The notes under the pieces: model-generated
What the model saw: the letters and a program-made list of their open reading frames with translations, nothing else
What the model was told of the DNA's origin: nothing
The model's database searches: none
Shown here: in pieces, positions 2,041 through 11,675 of the stretch
Position numbering within the stretch: position 1 is the stretch's first letter
How the letters are laid out: the number at the start of each line of letters is the position of its first letter
Assembly (NCBI RefSeq): GCF_025502585.1
Contig: NZ_CP106679.1
Span: 973,001 to 1,037,000 of the forward strand
Length of the DNA: 64,000 nt
Direction of reading: 5' to 3'
From: Reichenbachiella agarivorans
GTDB taxonomy: Bacteria; Bacteroidota; Bacteroidia; Cytophagales; Cyclobacteriaceae
Made by a program: the position numbers and the translations under genes

Positions 2041-2889
2041 TTAACCACCCACAACCTCACCCCCGTTGACATGGATAATCTGCCCAGTGATGTAGGTACT
2101 GTCCTCAGATGCGAGGAACACATATGCCGGAGCTACCTCTGAGGGCTGTCCTGCTCGACCTAGAGGTGTATCTGATCCAAACTCACTGACATCATCAAAG
2201 GTGGCAGGAATCAGTGGTGTCCAAATAGGGCCAGGCGCCACGCCATTGACTAGTATACCTGATGGTGCTAGATTCTTTGCTAGAGATCGTGTGAAGGATA
2301 CAATTGCTCCTTTGGTCGAGGCATAATCTATGAGGTGGTCGCTGCCTCTATATGCTGTGACGGAAGTAGTATTGATCACACGATCTCCCTTATGCATATG
2401 TGGCAAGGCAAGCTGAGTCATGTAAATAAACGAGAAGATATTGGTCTGGAAAGTTTCTACCATATGATCCTGACTCACGTCTTGTAAAGTATCCTCAGGA
2501 AACTGCACAGCTGCATTGTTGACTAGAATATTGATTTTCCCGAACTTGGCTATCACCTCTTGAATGCATTTTTTACAAAAAGATTTGTCTTTGACATCCC
2601 CCCGCAGCAATATGCACACACCTCCCAATGACTCCACCAGAGTACTTGTTTCCTCGGCATCTTCATCCTCATTGTAATAGACGATGGCAACACTGGCACC
2701 TTCTGCAGCATAATGCATGGCTATAGACCTACCTATTCCGCTATCCCCTCCAGTGATGATGGCCACTTTGCCTCTCAGTTTACCACTAGGTATGTATTCT
2801 GTCCGCATGGTTTCAGGTTGAGGTCTCATTCGTTTCTCTTCGCCTGGTTGCTTCTTTTGAGATTGATCTGGAAATTGAGCTGATGTCAT
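2041..2889 (-). CDS. SDR-family oxidoreductase (YhdF/YdaD general-stress type)
   Basis: A 282-residue NAD(P)-dependent short-chain dehydrogenase. After an extended hydrophilic N terminus of about 40 residues come the cofactor motif TGGDSGIGR, the NNAAVQ motif and the catalytic YASTK (Tyr-x-x-x-Lys) with an upstream serine in NTTSVTAYRGS. The C terminus carries the SDR consensus APGPIWTPL and ITGQIIHVNGG. The long N terminus with Gln/Pro-rich residues is typical of the stress-associated glucose/ribitol dehydrogenase-like subgroup. The substrate cannot be assigned. It is monocistronic, with about 110 bp to the downstream STAS-like gene. The upstream region contains an unexplained inverted repeat and the sRNA array on the other strand. 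Confidence 0.9.
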   Translation of the reverse strand: MTSAQFPDQSQKKQPGEEKRMRPQPETMRTEYIPSGKLRGKVAIITGGDSGIGRSIAMHYAAEGASVAIVYYNEDEDAEETSTLVESLGGVCILLRGDVKDKSFCKKCIQEVIAKFGKINILVNNAAVQFPEDTLQDVSQDHMVETFQTNIFSFIYMTQLALPHMHKGDRVINTTSVTAYRGSDHLIDYASTKGAIVSFTRSLAKNLAPSGILVNGVAPGPIWTPLIPATFDDVSEFGSDTPLGRAGQPSEVAPAYVFLASEDSTYITGQIIHVNGGEVVGG

Positions 2890-3000
2890 GATTAGATAGT
2901 TTTAGTGATCAATAGATTGCTTGAACCATGTTGCATGAACCTTGCCAACTGAATTCTGACAATTTCAGCAATATTTACTCAATACATCGTAGAAGATAGA

Positions 3001-3019
3001 CCCCTTGTTGGGGATTTTT
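3001..3019 (+). terminator. Weak terminator-like hairpin in the upstream region
   Basis: CCCC (3001-3004) pairs with GGGG (3010-3013), followed by ATTTTT. The stem is only 4 bp. No transcript is known to reach it, so it may be chance. Confidence 0.25.
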
Positions 3020-3072
3020 GTCACCATGCAATACGAGCTAATCTACTCTCTACAGAAGACTGTTCTATCTCA

Positions 3073-3114
3073 TTTATGATATACACGCCTTTCACTTATG
3101 CCATATATCATAAA
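3073..3114. repeat. 10-bp perfect inverted repeat with 22-nt spacer
   Basis: TTTATGATAT (3073-3082) and ATATCATAAA (3105-3114) are perfect reverse complements. The pair lies about 85 bp before the first LytTR-type repeat and 185 bp upstream of the SDR start on the other strand. It could be an operator or an RNA stem; no family is recognised. Confidence 0.4.
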
Positions 3115-3197
3115 GTACAATGTCTTGTGACAGACTATCAAAAACACATCCTATTTACCTTGAAAGCCACTTTCTATTGACCTACATTGAAATATAG

Positions 3198-3264
3198 TTC
3201 ACCAAGAAAATCATACAGTTCACCGATTCTTGTTTTAAGAAATTGATTTGGGATAGTATCATTG
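3198..3264 (+). promoter_or_regulatory. LytTR-type direct-repeat promoter, copy 1
   Basis: TTCACC occurs at 3198-3203 and 3219-3224, exactly 21 bp apart, the second in the context ACAGTTCACCGATT. The -7-like element TATCATTG (3257-3264; consensus TAnnTTTG with one mismatch) starts 38 bp after the second repeat. ACAGTTCAC resembles published LytTR half-sites such as the AgrA-type ACAGTTAAG. Repeat spacing and distance to -7 are identical in the three other copies. Confidence 0.75.
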
Positions 3265-3269
3265 CATTG

Positions 3270-3412
3270 TAGTCAAACGGTAAAAGAGAAGAGAAAAGTT
3301 GGAGTTGATTACAAGAGAAAAGGGAAACCTACTCAACCAAAATAGAATAGTAATTTAGTCTTTCATAATCATGCTTAAGCTGCTGATCCAGACGGGATGA
3401 GCAGCTTTTTTT
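3270..3412 (+). ncRNA. Putative small RNA, tandem copy 1
   Basis: A noncoding unit of about 143 nt between the predicted start (6 nt after the -7 element) and an intrinsic terminator. The 3' part from 3337 (CCAAAATAGAATAG) through the terminator is nearly identical to copies 2 and 3. The 5' half has diverged from them, but still holds a short hairpin with a GAAA tetraloop (GG 3322-3323, GAAA 3324-3327, CC 3328-3329) just before the common core. No convincing protein reading frame is present. The start is predicted from promoter position only. This is inferred to be a trans-acting sRNA family member. Confidence 0.65.
3377..3412 (+). terminator. Terminator of sRNA copy 1
   Basis: AAGCTGCT (3377-3384) pairs with AGCAGCTT (3400-3407), followed by a run of T. 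The stem is shared with copies 2 and 3; this copy has CCAGACG where they have CCGGACG in the loop. Confidence 0.85.
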
Positions 3413-3542
3413 GTACCCTCCTCGACGTACTAGATACGACAACACTCAAAACGTCTCTCCAAAAGATGAGTTTGACACCCAAGATTCAACATCGTCAATT
3501 CAAGAATTTATACCTAAACTCTTCAAACAATTATTCCTTCAC

Positions 3543-3609
3543 TTCACCTAAATAATTATGCAGTTCACCGATTTCAACTTTAGAAATATACACTGCATGC
3601 ATATCATTG
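3543..3609 (+). promoter_or_regulatory. LytTR-type direct-repeat promoter, copy 2
   Basis: TTCACC at 3543-3548 and 3564-3569 (21 bp apart) and TATCATTG at 3602-3609, 38 bp after the second repeat. An upstream block CTTCAAACAATTATTCCTTC before the first repeat is shared with copy 3 and, with a few changes, with the promoter of the secreted-protein gene. Confidence 0.75.
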
Positions 3610-3614
3610 CATTG

Positions 3615-3757
3615 TAGTTAAACAGGTAGTGAAGTAAGAACAGGAAAAATTAACTACATGAGCTGAGGCAACTCGCTCCACCAAAATAGAATAGTAATTT
3701 AGTCTTTCATAATCATGCTTAAGCTGCTGATCCGGACGGGATGAGCAGCTTTTTTTT
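3615..3757 (+). ncRNA. Putative small RNA, tandem copy 2
   Basis: About 143 nt from the predicted start to the end of the T tract. It contains a hairpin at 3660-3678: GAGC, bulged T, GAG, loop GCAA, CTC, GCTC. The loop is a GNRA tetraloop. From 3681 it joins the common 3' core and terminator. It is most similar to copy 3. Against copy 3 the hairpin stem is unchanged and the loop changes from GCAA to GTAA, still GNRA, which argues for selection on RNA structure. No coding frame of credible length exists on this strand. Confidence 0.7.
3721..3757 (+). terminator. Terminator of sRNA copy 2
   Basis: AAGCTGCT (3721-3728) pairs with AGCAGCTT (3744-3751), followed by a long T run. Confidence 0.85.
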
Positions 3758-3894
3758 GCGCCCTTGCGTACTAGCTGCATTCGTAAAGCGCAAGGCTTTT
3801 CTGATAACAACCCGAAAATGATTTGTGTGTTGCAAATCTGGAATCACTGCACATGAAAATTACTCGAAAACTCTTCAAACAATTATTCCTTCAC

Positions 3895-3961
3895 TTCACC
3901 TGAATAATAATACAGTTCACCGATTTCAACTTTAGAAATATACGCTGCGTGCATATCATTG
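3895..3961 (+). promoter_or_regulatory. LytTR-type direct-repeat promoter, copy 3
   Basis: TTCACC at 3895-3900 and 3916-3921 (21 bp apart), with TATCATTG at 3954-3961, again 38 bp after the second repeat. The spacer and upstream block are close to copy 2. Confidence 0.75.
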
Positions 3962-3966
3962 CATTG

Positions 3967-4108
3967 TAGTTGATCAGGTAGCGAAGTAGAAACAAGAGAA
4001 ATTAACTACATGAGCTGAGGTAACTCGCTCCGCCAAAATAGAATAGTAATTTAGTCTTTCATAATCATGCTTAAGCTGCTGATCCGGACGGGATGAGCAG
4101 CTTTTTTT
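3967..4108 (+). ncRNA. Putative small RNA, tandem copy 3
   Basis: About 142 nt. It has the same layout as copy 2: GNRA hairpin at 4012-4030 with loop GTAA, common core from 4033, and terminator stem AAGCTGCT (4073-4080) with AGCAGCTT (4096-4103). The three -7 elements are spaced 345 and 352 bp apart, so the array arose by tandem duplication of a promoter-RNA-terminator unit. The intervening spacers (3413-3530 and 3758-3880) have diverged. Confidence 0.7.
4073..4108 (+). terminator. Terminator of sRNA copy 3
   Basis: AAGCTGCT (4073-4080) pairs with AGCAGCTT (4096-4103), followed by T residues to 4108. Confidence 0.85.
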
Positions 4109-4257
4109 ATGCCCTTACCAAAATAAGTCCCCCCACGGAATCCGTCCAATTGTTGGGCCAAGTGATAACCCTAATAGATGACAGGTTTTGAACTGTCACC
4201 TCCAAATACAGTCAAATCCAAGAATAGTTCTATTTGTTCAAATAATTTATCCTTCAT

Positions 4258-4324
4258 TTCACCCAAAAAAAATTAAAGCTCACCGATTTTGGGTTTCAGA
4301 CTCACTATAGTCCCCGTAATCTTG
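4258..4324 (+). promoter_or_regulatory. LytTR-type direct-repeat promoter of the secreted-protein gene
   Basis: TTCACC at 4258-4263 and CTCACC at 4279-4284 (21 bp apart, followed by GATT as in the other copies). A -7 element TAATCTTG lies at 4317-4324, 38 bp after the second repeat. It precedes the ATG at 4360 by 36 nt. The -7 sequence and spacer differ from the sRNA copies, yet spacing is identical, so the repeats are probably a true binding site and not just a copied unit. Confidence 0.75.
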
Positions 4325-4359
4325 TATCGTAATCAATTTCAAAATTAAATATTGAACCC

Positions 4360-4710
4360 ATGAAAACTACATTTAAAACAATTGCAATTGCAGTGATGGT
4401 AGCCATGTCTACTCTTTCATTTGCAGGTAAGAATGGAGAAAAAGCTGAAAAAGCAGTAAGTGCTGAATTGGCTGTAAGAATTGTGGCTGTAGACGAAGCT
4501 AGTGTCGCAGTAATATTCGCTAAACTAGAAGGCGAAGAAGTAAAGGTTAAGATCTACGATGCATACGGTGCATTGGTACATACTGAAAAGGAAACAGAAG
4601 GCACGAGCTTCACTAAAAAGTTTGACATCTCTGCTTTGCCTGCAGGAGACTACACATACATGGTTGCTAACGACCTGTATTCTGTAAAGAAAGTAATTGC
4701 TAAAAATTAA
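4360..4710 (+). CDS. Small secreted protein with a T9SS-tail-like / DUF3244-like beta domain
   Basis: A 116-residue protein. A Sec signal peptide (MKTTFKTIAIAVMVAMSTLS, then FAG) takes up the first 22-23 residues. The rest is an Ala/Glu/Lys-rich linker and one beta-sandwich domain of about 80 residues. The domain includes VKVKIYDAYGALVHTE and ALPAGDYTYMV and ends VKKVIAKN, the pattern of DUF3244 proteins and of type IX secretion C-terminal domains ('G-x-L-V ... L-P-A-G-x-Y'). It is therefore nearly a stand-alone tail domain without a passenger. It shares its promoter design with the three sRNAs upstream and precedes a LytTR two-component pair. Function unknown; periplasmic or exported location is inferred. 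Confidence 0.8.
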   Translation: MKTTFKTIAIAVMVAMSTLSFAGKNGEKAEKAVSAELAVRIVAVDEASVAVIFAKLEGEEVKVKIYDAYGALVHTEKETEGTSFTKKFDISALPAGDYTYMVANDLYSVKKVIAKN

Positions 4711-4734
4711 TTCCCTTTTAGCCAAAAGAATAAG

Positions 4735-4766
4735 ACCCTGAGCAGTTAACTGCTCAGGGTTTTTTG
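4735..4766 (+). terminator. Intrinsic terminator after the secreted-protein gene
   Basis: ACCCTGAGCAGTT pairs with the following AACTGCTCAGGGT, with a T run immediately after. It separates the secreted-protein gene from the kinase gene, which thus needs its own promoter. Confidence 0.85.
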
Positions 4767-4815
4767 TGCATTACCTATTTTTATATTAGTAATTATGCAC
4801 GTACTTCGTGTATCA

Positions 4816-4828: not shown

Positions 4829-5908
4829 ATGTCAGATTTTTTGAGAGTGTTTAGATGGTCTAGGGTTAATTGGTGGAGATGGTTGAGTGTCGTATTTATG
4901 GGTGCGGGTATTCGACTGTTCATCGATATTATTTACAGTGTATTTTATTCAGATTTACCCATCTTCCTAGAGTTGAATGAGTATCTATATGCCATCATAC
5001 TTGCACTTTTCGTGCTGGAGGGTATTCGATTCATCAACCGACTACTAGACAAGGTTCGTCCCTGGGAGCAAGGAGCCAAGAGCCGATTCATTATTCAACT
5101 ATCTTCCAATACCATCTACGCTTTCGCTATCATTGCGTTTTTTGGTGCGTACTTATACCAATTCATCAATGAGCATCATTCTAGACCTCTATTTGATGAT
5201 ATAGTAGTGATCTCCACTGCATCATCTTTGACTATTTTGGTAGTATCAATTGAGATGGGCATGTTTTTTCTCAACAAGTGGAAAGTATCTATGATAGAAA
5301 TCGAGCGATTCAAAAAAGAAGGATTGGAGTTTAGACATGAAATGTTGAAAACACAGGTGAACCCTCATTTTTTGTTCAATAGTCTCAACACCTTGTCTTC
5401 TTTGGTATATTCGGATCCCAATACAGCCTATAGTTTCATTCGCAAATTGTCCAACGTCTATAGGAATGTGTTGGAGCATCGCAACAAAGGTCTGGTAAGC
5501 ATCAAAGAAGAACTGGAATCCATAGAATCTTACGTAGAACTAATCCGTATGAGATTTGGTGAAAAACTGATCATCACGATAGACCCGATGAAAGAAGTAG
5601 AAGACTGGCAAGTGCCACCATTGATTTTTCAGTTGCTCATCGAAAACGCTATTAAACACAATGTCGTATCTACCAAGTATCCTTTGTCTATTTGGGTCTA
5701 CCACGAAGGAGATCAGATTGTCATCAAGAATAGTTTGAGATTAAAATCCTCCAAGGGATATTCATCCAAAATAGGATTGGACAACATCATCAGTCACTAT
5801 GACATTGTAACTGATAAAAATGTAGAAATAAAGCAGACAGAAGAACATTTTATTGTATTATTACCATTATTAAGCCCTGATTATGAAGGTATTGATTATA
5901 GAGGATGA
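4829..5908 (+). CDS. LytS/YehU-type sensor histidine kinase
   Basis: Membrane sensor kinase that should phosphorylate the overlapping LytTR regulator. I chose the ATG at 4829; a GTG seven codons upstream is possible. The N-terminal ~165 residues carry about four membrane segments, with no large extracytoplasmic domain. Then come a short helical linker, the PF06580-type dimerisation segment TQVNPHFLFNSLNTLSSLV (phospho-acceptor His in NPHFLFN), and an ATPase domain with N box LLIENAIKHN and a later GLDNI segment. It overlaps the regulator by 26 bp, so the two are co-translated. The stimulus is unknown; the membrane-buried sensor suggests a membrane or lipophilic signal (inference). Confidence 0.93.
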   Translation: MSDFLRVFRWSRVNWWRWLSVVFMGAGIRLFIDIIYSVFYSDLPIFLELNEYLYAIILALFVLEGIRFINRLLDKVRPWEQGAKSRFIIQLSSNTIYAFAIIAFFGAYLYQFINEHHSRPLFDDIVVISTASSLTILVVSIEMGMFFLNKWKVSMIEIERFKKEGLEFRHEMLKTQVNPHFLFNSLNTLSSLVYSDPNTAYSFIRKLSNVYRNVLEHRNKGLVSIKEELESIESYVELIRMRFGEKLIITIDPMKEVEDWQVPPLIFQLLIENAIKHNVVSTKYPLSIWVYHEGDQIVIKNSLRLKSSKGYSSKIGLDNIISHYDIVTDKNVEIKQTEEHFIVLLPLLSPDYEGIDYRG

Positions 5909-6668
5909 AAAATTCGCCCAAGAAGAATTGAAAAGATTGCTGGCGGAGACATCTTATGACATAGAAGTTTTAGCCTGTTTTGAGTCTATCGAAGAAACGG
6001 TAGAATGGTACGAAGAAAATGACGAACCAGATTTGATCTTTATGGACATACAGTTGTCCGACGGATTGAGTTTTGAGATATTTCAGCAAGCAGAAGTGAC
6101 CTGTCCCATTATTTTCACAACTGCTTTTGAAAACTACGCAATCAAGGCTTTCAAAGTCAATAGCATTGACTACCTACTCAAGCCTATCGAGAAGGACGAT
6201 CTAGAAGCTGCTATCAAAAAGTACGATGACCTAAAAAACAACGCACCCCATTCAGCCGAAGAAGGTACCGTTTCGTTGAGTGTCGATCAGGTACAGCAGT
6301 TGCTCAAGTTGTCGGACGATCAAAAGGATTACAAAAAGAGATTTATCATCAAGTCTGGTGATAGAATGAGACATGTGTCCGTAGAGGACATCGCCTATTT
6401 TTTCGCAGAGGACGATTACACCTATTTGGTAGCCAAAGAAAATGCTAAATTCATTATTTCCTTCAAGCTCGACGAATTGGTCAAAATGCTGGATCCCAAT
6501 GACTTTTTCCGTATCTCTAGGAAATACATCGTCAACATCCATTCGGTAAAATTGGTCAATAAATATTTCAACAGTAGACTAGAAGTAATTCTACAACCAG
6601 AGACCAAAGATCAAATTCTGATCAGTCGTGTGCGAGTCCCAGAGTTTTTGAACTGGCTGGAAAAGTAG
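5883..6668 (+). CDS. LytTR-family response regulator
   Basis: A 261-residue two-component regulator. The receiver domain (about 1-120) has acidic residues ED at 7-8, phospho-acceptor D55 in LIFMDIQLSDG, the TTAF switch residue and the conserved lysine in YLLKPIEKDD. A linker leads to a LytTR DNA-binding domain (about 155-260) with VEDIAYFFAEDDYTYLV and FFRISRKYIVNIHSV. LytTR domains bind two direct repeats of about 9 bp roughly two helical turns apart. The 21-bp spaced TTCACC repeats before the nearby sRNAs and secreted protein fit this well, making them the best candidate targets. A hairpin follows at 6713-6746. Confidence 0.95.
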   Translation: MKVLIIEDEKFAQEELKRLLAETSYDIEVLACFESIEETVEWYEENDEPDLIFMDIQLSDGLSFEIFQQAEVTCPIIFTTAFENYAIKAFKVNSIDYLLKPIEKDDLEAAIKKYDDLKNNAPHSAEEGTVSLSVDQVQQLLKLSDDQKDYKKRFIIKSGDRMRHVSVEDIAYFFAEDDYTYLVAKENAKFIISFKLDELVKMLDPNDFFRISRKYIVNIHSVKLVNKYFNSRLEVILQPETKDQILISRVRVPEFLNWLEK

Positions 6669-10928: not shown

Positions 10929-11675
10929 TTAGTTCAGGGATGAAAACACTTTTTGCTTGTAAGTCCTGCTGATGGGCAGAGTTTGATTGGCAATAGTAAT
11001 CTGCTCCTTGTTGAAAGAAGAGATGTGTAGTCTGTTGACCATAAATGATCGGTGGATTCTCACGAAAATCTGGGGCATTCGGTTTTCCAAGGAACTGATT
11101 TTCTCTTTAGTAATGATTTTTTCATTGAATAGATGAATCGTGACGTAATCACCGAGACTCTCAATGTACCGTATGTCTTCGAAAAACACCTGCCTATTGC
11201 TCCGATTTTCTTTGATGGTAATTGAGTCTATTTTTGATTTTTCTACCTCGTCTTGGTAGTAACTAATCGATTTTTGATTGTGGAAATAGAAACGAATCAG
11301 GCGAATGAAGGATAAGCCAAAGACCACGAAGTACAAAGTGATGGTAAGAATGGAGACATCTGTGGTGATTGGATTCATATTGGCATAATCATACTCTGCC
11401 AATAGGATGAATGCAGTTGTGATCACTAGCATTTCTAGATTGAGGGAAATGATGAGCAGATAAAAACTGTAGAGCACAAATTTGAAATATCTCCTAGCGA
11501 ACAAGTATTTCACGACTATGTAATAGTTAAAGAAATAGGCCGTGCCTACTATGACAGGCAGGAGTAGGCATACAAAGTAAAATGACTCGGAAAAGCTCTG
11601 GTACGATCTGCCAAATATCAACGTGAGCAATCCTGTGATCGTGATCCAAAACAAAATGTGTCCAACAATTTTCAT
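10929..11675 (-). CDS. Membrane-anchored LytTR transcription regulator (no receiver domain)
   Basis: A 248-residue one-component regulator. The N-terminal half has about four membrane helices (among them FWITITGLLTLIFG and FVCLLLPVIVGTAYFF). A short helical linker (YYQDEVEKSKIDS) follows, then a C-terminal LytTR DNA-binding domain (about 150-248) with FEDIRYIESLGDYVTIHL and VRIHRSFMVN. No phospho-acceptor domain exists, so the signal must come through the membrane part. It heads the ABC transporter operon and is divergent from the ExbB-like gene across 138 bp, making these two units its likely targets. Membrane-linked LytTR regulators are common in Bacteroidota; the ligand is unknown. Confidence 0.9.
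   Translation of the reverse strand: MKIVGHILFWITITGLLTLIFGRSYQSFSESFYFVCLLLPVIVGTAYFFNYYIVVKYLFARRYFKFVLYSFYLLIISLNLEMLVITTAFILLAEYDYANMNPITTDVSILTITLYFVVFGLSFIRLIRFYFHNQKSISYYQDEVEKSKIDSITIKENRSNRQVFFEDIRYIESLGDYVTIHLFNEKIITKEKISSLENRMPQIFVRIHRSFMVNRLHISSFNKEQITIANQTLPISRTYKQKVFSSLN

Follow-up and report, generated by a model that had tools for sequence, protein, structure and literature searches.

A probable LytTR-type operator shared by a predicted multicopy small RNA family and small secreted proteins in Reichenbachiella agarivorans

Why do four successive promoters carry the same pair of direct repeats at the same distance from the -7 element, when three of them precede putative short non-coding transcripts and the fourth precedes a gene for a small secreted protein? 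The question is raised by positions 3198 to 4324 of a 64,000-nucleotide stretch of Reichenbachiella agarivorans DNA (NZ_CP106679.1, positions 973,001 to 1,037,000; hereafter the window), in which a LytS/LytTR two-component pair begins about 500 bp downstream. An earlier reading made from the letters alone (the sequence-only reading) had proposed that this pair controls all four promoters. We propose, as the probable answer, that they belong to a regulon in which a LytTR protein drives a multicopy small RNA (sRNA) family and secreted proteins, with the sRNA repressing the translation of carbohydrate genes.

In the window, YTCACC-N15-YTCACC has four matches, against 0.07 expected from 100 dinucleotide-preserving shuffles, none of which contained four. 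All four pairs have a period of 21 bp and each -7 element begins 38 bp from the start of the second repeat, at exactly the positions which the sequence-only reading had given. By eye, a degenerate third repeat lies a further 21 bp upstream of each pair. The features of the locus, all on the + strand, are as follows.

3177-3224 (+): operator of sRNA 1, degenerate TTGACC (3177) and TTCACC at 3198 and 3219 (from the sequence and the site alignment)
3257-3264 (+): -7 element of sRNA 1, TATCATTG
3265-3412 (+): sRNA 1, start approximate, ending in the T-run of its terminator
3351-3366 (+): conserved block of sRNA 1, TAATTTAGTCTTTCAT, putative seed
3377-3412 (+): terminator hairpin and T-run of sRNA 1
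3522-3569 (+): operator of sRNA 2, degenerate TTCAAA (3522) and TTCACC at 3543 and 3564
3602-3609 (+): -7 element of sRNA 2, TATCATTG
3610-3756 (+): sRNA 2
3695-3710 (+): conserved block of sRNA 2, putative seed
3874-3921 (+): operator of sRNA 3, degenerate TTCAAA (3874) and TTCACC at 3895 and 3916
3954-3961 (+): -7 element of sRNA 3, TATCATTG
3962-4108 (+): sRNA 3
4047-4062 (+): conserved block of sRNA 3, putative seed
4237-4284 (+): operator of the secreted-protein gene, degenerate TTCAAA (4237), TTCACC at 4258 and CTCACC at 4279
4317-4324 (+): -7 element of the secreted-protein gene, TAATCTTG
4360-4710 (+): small secreted protein, 116 aa, residues 39-115 modelled as a DUF3244-like immunoglobulin-type beta sandwich, with a Por_Secre_tail match
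4736-4766 (+): inverted repeat and T-run, terminator-like (by eye), between the secreted-protein gene and the kinase gene
4829-5908 (+): LytS-type histidine kinase, PF06580, with a hydrophobic N-terminal membrane part
5883-6668 (+): LytTR response regulator, PF00072 and PF04397

The genome that contains the window (G000) measures 4.47 Mb and forms one contig. TTCACC-N15-YTCACC occurs in it seven times, four times in the window and once each at loci L005, L006 and L007. L007 is a fourth sRNA copy with its operator, and L006 is a paralogous second secreted-protein gene, likewise with operator. In a third secreted-protein paralogue (L212, at 3223127) the promoter is conserved, the first repeat is degraded to CTCGCA and the second reads GTCACC (repeats aligned by eye). 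The sequence-only reading, with three sRNAs and one secreted protein, was too low in its numbers, the genome holding four sRNAs and three secreted paralogues. The L005 match sits inside an ABC-transporter gene; it was taken as chance and not as a member of the regulon.

Across eight Reichenbachiella genomes (G000 to G007) the same pattern has 63 matches, as opposed to 15 for the reversed pattern. All 63 were inspected in context: 48 represent 47 promoters located before an sRNA or a secreted protein of about 112 aa, and 15 precede neither. The 18 sRNA promoters are distributed over G000, G002, G004 and G007 (four each) and G006 (two), the 29 secreted-protein promoters over G000 (2), G001 (5), G002 (4), G003 (3), G004 (5), G005 (3), G006 (4) and G007 (3). 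In addition to the 18, G002 and G004 each have one further sRNA copy whose operator carries a mismatch. We curated 49 sites, namely the 47 promoters, one site in G040, a genome of another family, and a one-mismatch site in G006; the doubtful L093 and L106 were set aside, and the promoter-proximal register was chosen for sites with three repeats (L102-L105 of G006; L064, L069). In 46 of the 49, TANNNTTG starts exactly 32 bp past the second repeat, while L061_2005, L095 and L102 have a one-base variant of the -7 at the same position. At L106 (G006), where a TTCACC pair stands before a secreted-looking protein of 89 aa, the -7-like TACCTTTGG does not keep this spacing.

The anatomy of the operator was derived from 26 sites, reduced in redundancy to <60% identity outside the motif. 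The half-site consensus is TnMAnYTCACC, the invariance of TTCACC in the first repeat being due in part to the search, which demanded it. Spacer columns are mostly near background, except for an invariant A between the repeats and an almost invariant G following the second repeat. A weaker copy is found 21 bp further upstream (T 0.73, C 0.73, A 0.88, C 0.58, C 0.62), from which it follows that the array comprises three phased half-sites; the third is plain in some G006 arrays. Promoters of this phylum have a -33/-7 consensus. A TTT ending 20 bp ahead of the -7 element fits such a promoter, and a canonical sigma-ABfr promoter is named in the study of FopS, an sRNA family of Bacteroides thetaiotaomicron (PMC11697453; here and below, cited papers are represented by excerpts of their text). 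The bases right after the -7 (about TTGTARTYAA; 3265-3275 in the window) are conserved in most target promoters, those of sRNAs and of secreted proteins alike, and are perhaps an initiation signal.

LytTR sites are described as a pair of 9-11 nt repeats, direct or inverse, separated by 11-13 nt, the motif of YpdB being GGCATTTCAT (PMC4847170). With its 21-bp period and TnMAnYTCACC half-sites upstream of the promoter, the present element matches these dimensions, and its geometry fits a LytTR-type operator, as had been suggested from the window.

All domains of the kinase and the regulator scored above the Pfam cut-offs, and the two reading frames overlap, as is expected of a LytS/LytTR pair. 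Orthologues of both are present in all seven other genomes of the genus, the regulators being 70-86% identical, whereas those of G040, G044 and G045 are 52-55% identical to the regulator of the window. The secreted-protein gene lies ahead of the pair in 8/8 genus genomes, in G040 and in G044; it was not found beside the pair in G045. At this trio the operator is exact in seven genus genomes and G040, has one mismatch in G006 and is at best degenerate in G044. Conservation of the motif at orthologous LytTR pairs, which the sequence-only reading had set as a check, is thus seen throughout the genus and beyond it in G040. A related-locus search over genome contigs returned four loci, two of them of the genus. 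In a search for solved structures of the LytTR half of the regulator, the best stretch of all 56 matches fell wholly or mainly in the receiver half. On this co-occurrence, the adjacent pair is the best candidate for the protein that would bind the operator.

Two other explanations of these promoters deserve attention. The similar spacing might merely reflect recent duplication of one promoter, and sRNAs 2 and 3 are indeed near copies; but the 26 divergent sites keep repeats, gap and -7 although their spacers are near background, and the spacing recurs in another family. Duplication as the sole cause, already doubted in the sequence-only reading, was rejected and is hardly credible. It is also conceivable, if unlikely, that the operator is bound by another LytTR protein or by several, the neighbouring pair being just one target operon. 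The genome encodes 14 LytTR proteins, of which 13 were placed on the map; the operators at L006 and L007 are far from every placed LytTR gene, the nearest being about 66 kb away; and G003 and G005 each possess a further, divergent LytS/LytTR pair, with regulators 40-42% identical, beside an operator-bearing secreted-protein gene. Against this, the orthologous pair is the constant neighbour of the operator across the eight genus genomes and G040, and in G000 a single one of the 12 remaining placed LytTR genes (983941, about 6.7 kb) lies within 10 kb of an operator. The adjacent regulator hence stays our candidate. The second pair of G003 and G005 is located at L061 37-1840 and L062 1923-3729, and is possibly a duplicated system. 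At 10929-11675 (-) the window also encodes a protein with a hydrophobic N-terminal part which ends in a LytTR domain and has no receiver domain; its gene adjoins ABC-transporter genes.

The short transcripts appear, from their sequence, to form a multicopy regulatory sRNA family of about 130-190 nt: each candidate has its own promoter, a terminator and a conserved non-coding body. A model built on the four copies of R. agarivorans found 20 copies in 5 of 98 genomes (its own included), all of them in the genus. An invariant block, AGAATAGTAATTTAGTCTTTCATAATCATGCTT, is common to 18 copies from four species. In the divergent G006, TAATTTAGTCTT is kept, the seed is UUUAGUCUUA, and the terminator has been rebuilt with other bases. 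Two copies fold better than shuffled sequences (z -2.14 and -2.35). RNAalifold with 18 copies retained the terminator alone (12 pairs, one with changes on both sides), and a second hairpin was equalled by at most 14 of 300 shuffles in G004_1 and G006_1 alone among the 20 copies. In unrooted trees of kinase and regulator, the presence of the sRNA needs one change, with weak support. A search of the window against Rfam 15 revealed no family at gathering score, and nothing relevant at E values up to 1 in 2800-4800; since it was not checked whether that library holds FopS, homology of the sRNAs to FopS is not established by this result.

What the sRNAs might act on, a matter to which the sequence-only reading did not extend, was approached through the conserved block, which is complementary to a 10-nt core word, AAAGACTAAA. 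Outside the sRNAs, the 16-nt complement ATGAAAGACTAAATTA, with up to two mismatches, matches at 43 sites in G000, G002, G004 and G007, and 20 of these lie at the start of an open reading frame (ORF) of at least 80 aa, our definition of a start region, compared with 3/34 for the reversed word (p = 0.0003). Leader sites, in which the ATG comes at least 12 nt past the start of the match, number 15/43, versus 2/34 for the reversed word and 3/42 for a control that keeps ATGAAA (p = 0.002 each). When AAAGACTAAA followed by ATG within 28 nt was sought, 39 of 65 unique sites were at gene starts; words of the same composition, drawn from the window and 60 control loci, gave 43/537 (about 8%), and a looser composition class 370/3644. 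The proportion at start regions remained 30/56 once similar genes and orthologues had been collapsed, and was 29/54 among sites unseen before the core word was chosen. Only the position of the seed complement and the type of gene are unusual; its frequency is not.

As to gene type, a SusC-like receptor recurs at start-region sites in G002, G004 and G007, an FGGY sugar kinase in G000, G002 and G007, ThuA-like genes in G000, G002 and G007 (the Pfam assignment coming from the G007 gene alone), and a sodium:solute symporter in G004 and G007. Carbohydrate Pfam domains occur in 11 of the 30 collapsed start-region genes, compared with 1 of 30 random genes, a sulfatase (p = 0.0012); the random set consisted of the longest ORF per control locus, taken from 30 of 59 loci. 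The 11 comprise alginate lyase, chondroitinase B, SusE, FGGY kinase, galactokinase, ThuA, GH39, SusD and sulfatase, and are completed by two TonB receptors read as SusC-like.

Several points weigh against the regulon as proposed. The start-region rule was fixed after 17 contexts had been inspected, and the core word was chosen after the 16-mer test. With the ATGAAA-keeping control, 19/42 sites fall at starts as opposed to the 20/43 given above; since start codons often read ATGAAA, start-region matches that overlap ATGAAA are explained by that codon pair. The 10-mer pattern is not commoner than its reversed control (77 versus 108 rows in four genomes), nor is the 16-mer in G000 (9 versus 11 outside the sRNAs with up to two mismatches); in G006, whose seed differs, the 16-mer likewise shows no excess (22 versus 25). 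The functional classes were assigned by the analyst and not blind. Without the two TonB receptors the carbohydrate bias is 9/30 versus 1/30 (p = 0.006), 7 of the 30 genes have no Pfam hit, and FabH, RluD, YebC, TerB and DUF6851 among the predicted targets are non-carbohydrate. Predicted folds do not consistently leave the putative seed unpaired, the mean unpaired probability being 0.28-0.62 in six copies. No sRNA was found in G001, G003 and G005 (E up to 0.01), though operators and regulator are present. In five genomes outside the genus the short pattern has 18 matches versus 8 for the control; four of the 18 were inspected, and G040 alone of these precedes a secreted-protein gene. With the terminator-like element at 4736-4766 ahead of them, kinase and regulator may or may not be autoregulated. 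Finally, the reading is founded on sequence comparison, with binding, transcripts and mutant effects being predictions.

These reservations bear on what the sRNA does. It is possible, though we think it rather unlikely, that the AAAGACTAAA found at gene starts serves as a DNA or translation element independent of the sRNA, which would act via a protein or another seed. A-rich leaders are common in the phylum, the seed is paired in some predictions, and the number of matches to its complement is not enriched. The 10-mer, on the other hand, is perfectly complementary to a stretch that all 18 copies from four species share, and both G006 copies keep this stretch save for one U-to-A change at its end; composition-matched words reach just 5-11% at gene starts, and the matches favour the gene class repressed by the FopS sRNAs of Bacteroides. 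A loop inside the regulon, in which the transcripts repress or titrate the mRNAs of the secreted proteins, would account for the common promoter and first transcribed bases of the two classes, and some secreted-protein genes carry AUGAAAACUA, which shows partial complementarity to the seed. We consider this improbable, and the pairing it calls for was rejected: for the 41-nt region the mean was -11.2 kcal/mol at 31 secreted-protein starts versus -12.7 kcal/mol at 43 others, and pairing of the 20-nt core was not clearly stronger (-7.7 versus -7.2 kcal/mol at other starts). That the transcripts encode a peptide, for example from a nine-codon frame over the terminator, as in peptide quorum sensing, is very improbable. 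In the four R. agarivorans copies the frame (ATGCTTAAG...TGA) is uninterrupted throughout. G006, however, lacks an ATG at that place, and an insertion displaces the frame of G007_3, though the RNA block and the terminator are preserved; the coding reading was rejected. Pairing of the sRNA at the starts of carbohydrate genes is the predicted function that we retain.

The product of the other target class, which might act as a ligand, a brake or an effector, was analyzed by structure prediction. An AlphaFold model made from four sequences has a mean predicted local distance difference test (pLDDT) score of 72.9, residues 1-34 being below 50 and the rest mostly above 80. Its best Foldseek matches are DUF3244 structures of Bacteroides (4g5a, E 8e-4; 3d33, E 1.6e-3). 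In Pfam, Por_Secre_tail scored above its cut-off (32.7 versus 27) and DUF3244 below (21.5 versus 25); NCBIfam matches, including TIGR04183, were below the cut-offs. The operator-bearing copies at L006, L074, L087 and L097 (in G000, G002, G004 and G007) adjoin a gene for an ABC-F-like ATPase (MISINNLSYYLGSRALF..., by eye).

Of 390 genomes sampled from the order, six contain the operator and -7 pattern and none the reversed control. The carriers are G000 (six sites), G040 (at the secreted-protein trio), G424, G050, G215 and G115. In G424 (L144), from a different family of the order, another LytS-type kinase/response-regulator pair directly follows this geometry; as the locus ends within the regulator gene, a LytTR domain was not seen in the product. 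The site suggests a wider LytTR operator code in the Bacteroidota. At L143 (G050) three TTCACY repeats and a -7 precede a secreted esterase-like gene, and at L145 (G215) an operator-like array and -7 precede a gene with a TonB-receptor-like N-terminus, both genes being named by eye.

Regulatory RNAs under the control of a response regulator, or an RNA that adjusts the use of secondary carbon sources, are known from AgrA-RNAIII, FasA-FasX, LuxO-Qrr and Spot 42. The make-up described here is, to judge from the sequence, analogous to that of the VirR regulon of Clostridium perfringens, in which several regulatory RNAs as well as secreted proteins depend on a response regulator with direct-repeat sites (PMC2838878). 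There too a direct-repeat pair lies immediately upstream of the promoter, the targets including VR-RNA, virT and virU; VirR/VirS differs in belonging to a Firmicute, in repeats that are 7-8 nt apart, in secreted targets that are toxins and clostripain rather than DUF3244-like, and in RNAs that the excerpt does not describe as one tandem paralogous family (PMC2838878). LhrC1-5 of Listeria monocytogenes, a member of another phylum, are five near-identical sRNAs, all dependent on LisRK; in the excerpt LisR has no known consensus and is not called a LytTR protein, and the target is lapB mRNA (PMC4132741). With VirR and LhrC as precedents, the view of the sequence-only reading that no system of this make-up had been described was too strong as a universal statement.

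FopS, from the same phylum, has 14 paralogous sRNAs with a terminator and one shared seed, which pair with the mRNAs of SusC homologues and glycoside hydrolases where translation starts (PMC11697453). Like FopS, the R. agarivorans family has a putative seed complementary to the starts of polysaccharide utilization locus genes. The FopS genes differ in having canonical promoters, possibly with a regulator yet to be found, and a seed near the 5' end; the excerpt describes no LytTR operator and gives any activator of their transcription as unknown (PMC11697453). The YpdA/YpdB and BtsS/BtsR systems of E. coli are LytS/LytTR pairs, and the half-site GGCATTTCAT resembles TGCATTTCACC (PMC4847170, PMC5552118, PMC10653868). 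Their targets named in the excerpts are transporter genes and not sRNAs, and BtsS is a receptor with seven transmembrane segments (PMC4847170, PMC5552118). These pairs respond to pyruvate (PMC5552118), which by analogy would fit a role in carbon use here. VirR, LhrC and FopS each being a precedent for one element, the novelty lies in the combination, with its operator and target word; in the open-access literature searched, we found neither a combination of LytTR operator, multicopy sRNA and target word in the Bacteroidota nor a report of small RNAs in Reichenbachiella.

The following sequence of events may be envisaged. The active LytS-type kinase would phosphorylate a regulator, most likely the product of 5883-6668, which would then occupy two to three of the 21-bp-phased half-sites just upstream of the -33 region. 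The bound regulator would activate, rather than repress, sigma-ABfr-type promoters of the sRNA family and of the small secreted DUF3244-like proteins, including the one next to the kinase. Predicted pairing of the sRNA block (core UUUAGUCUUU) with AAAGACUAAA, located at the start codon or shortly ahead of it, would repress translation of genes for the uptake and breakdown of polysaccharides and sugars. The last step is modelled on FopS, which binds beside the start codon of a susC mRNA and so prevents its translation (PMC11697453). If the pairing model is true, the target word should be lost in G001, G003 and G005 and should read TAAGACTAAA in G006.

R. agariperforans, a named member of the genus whose strain DSM 26134 has the same array (L152), is an agar degrader. 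We see about even chances that the sRNA acts much like catabolite repression, as a brake on entire polysaccharide and sugar programmes, coupled through the operator to secreted proteins which maybe report to the kinase. If the proposed regulon is true, it would represent the second paralogous sRNA family of the Bacteroidota, after FopS, that acts on glycan-uptake genes. The operator, the probable regulator and an explicit 10-nt target word would make both the transcriptional input and the translational output testable. A LytTR binding code for the Bacteroidota would be gained as well, and a conserved DUF3244-like secreted protein would be given a role.

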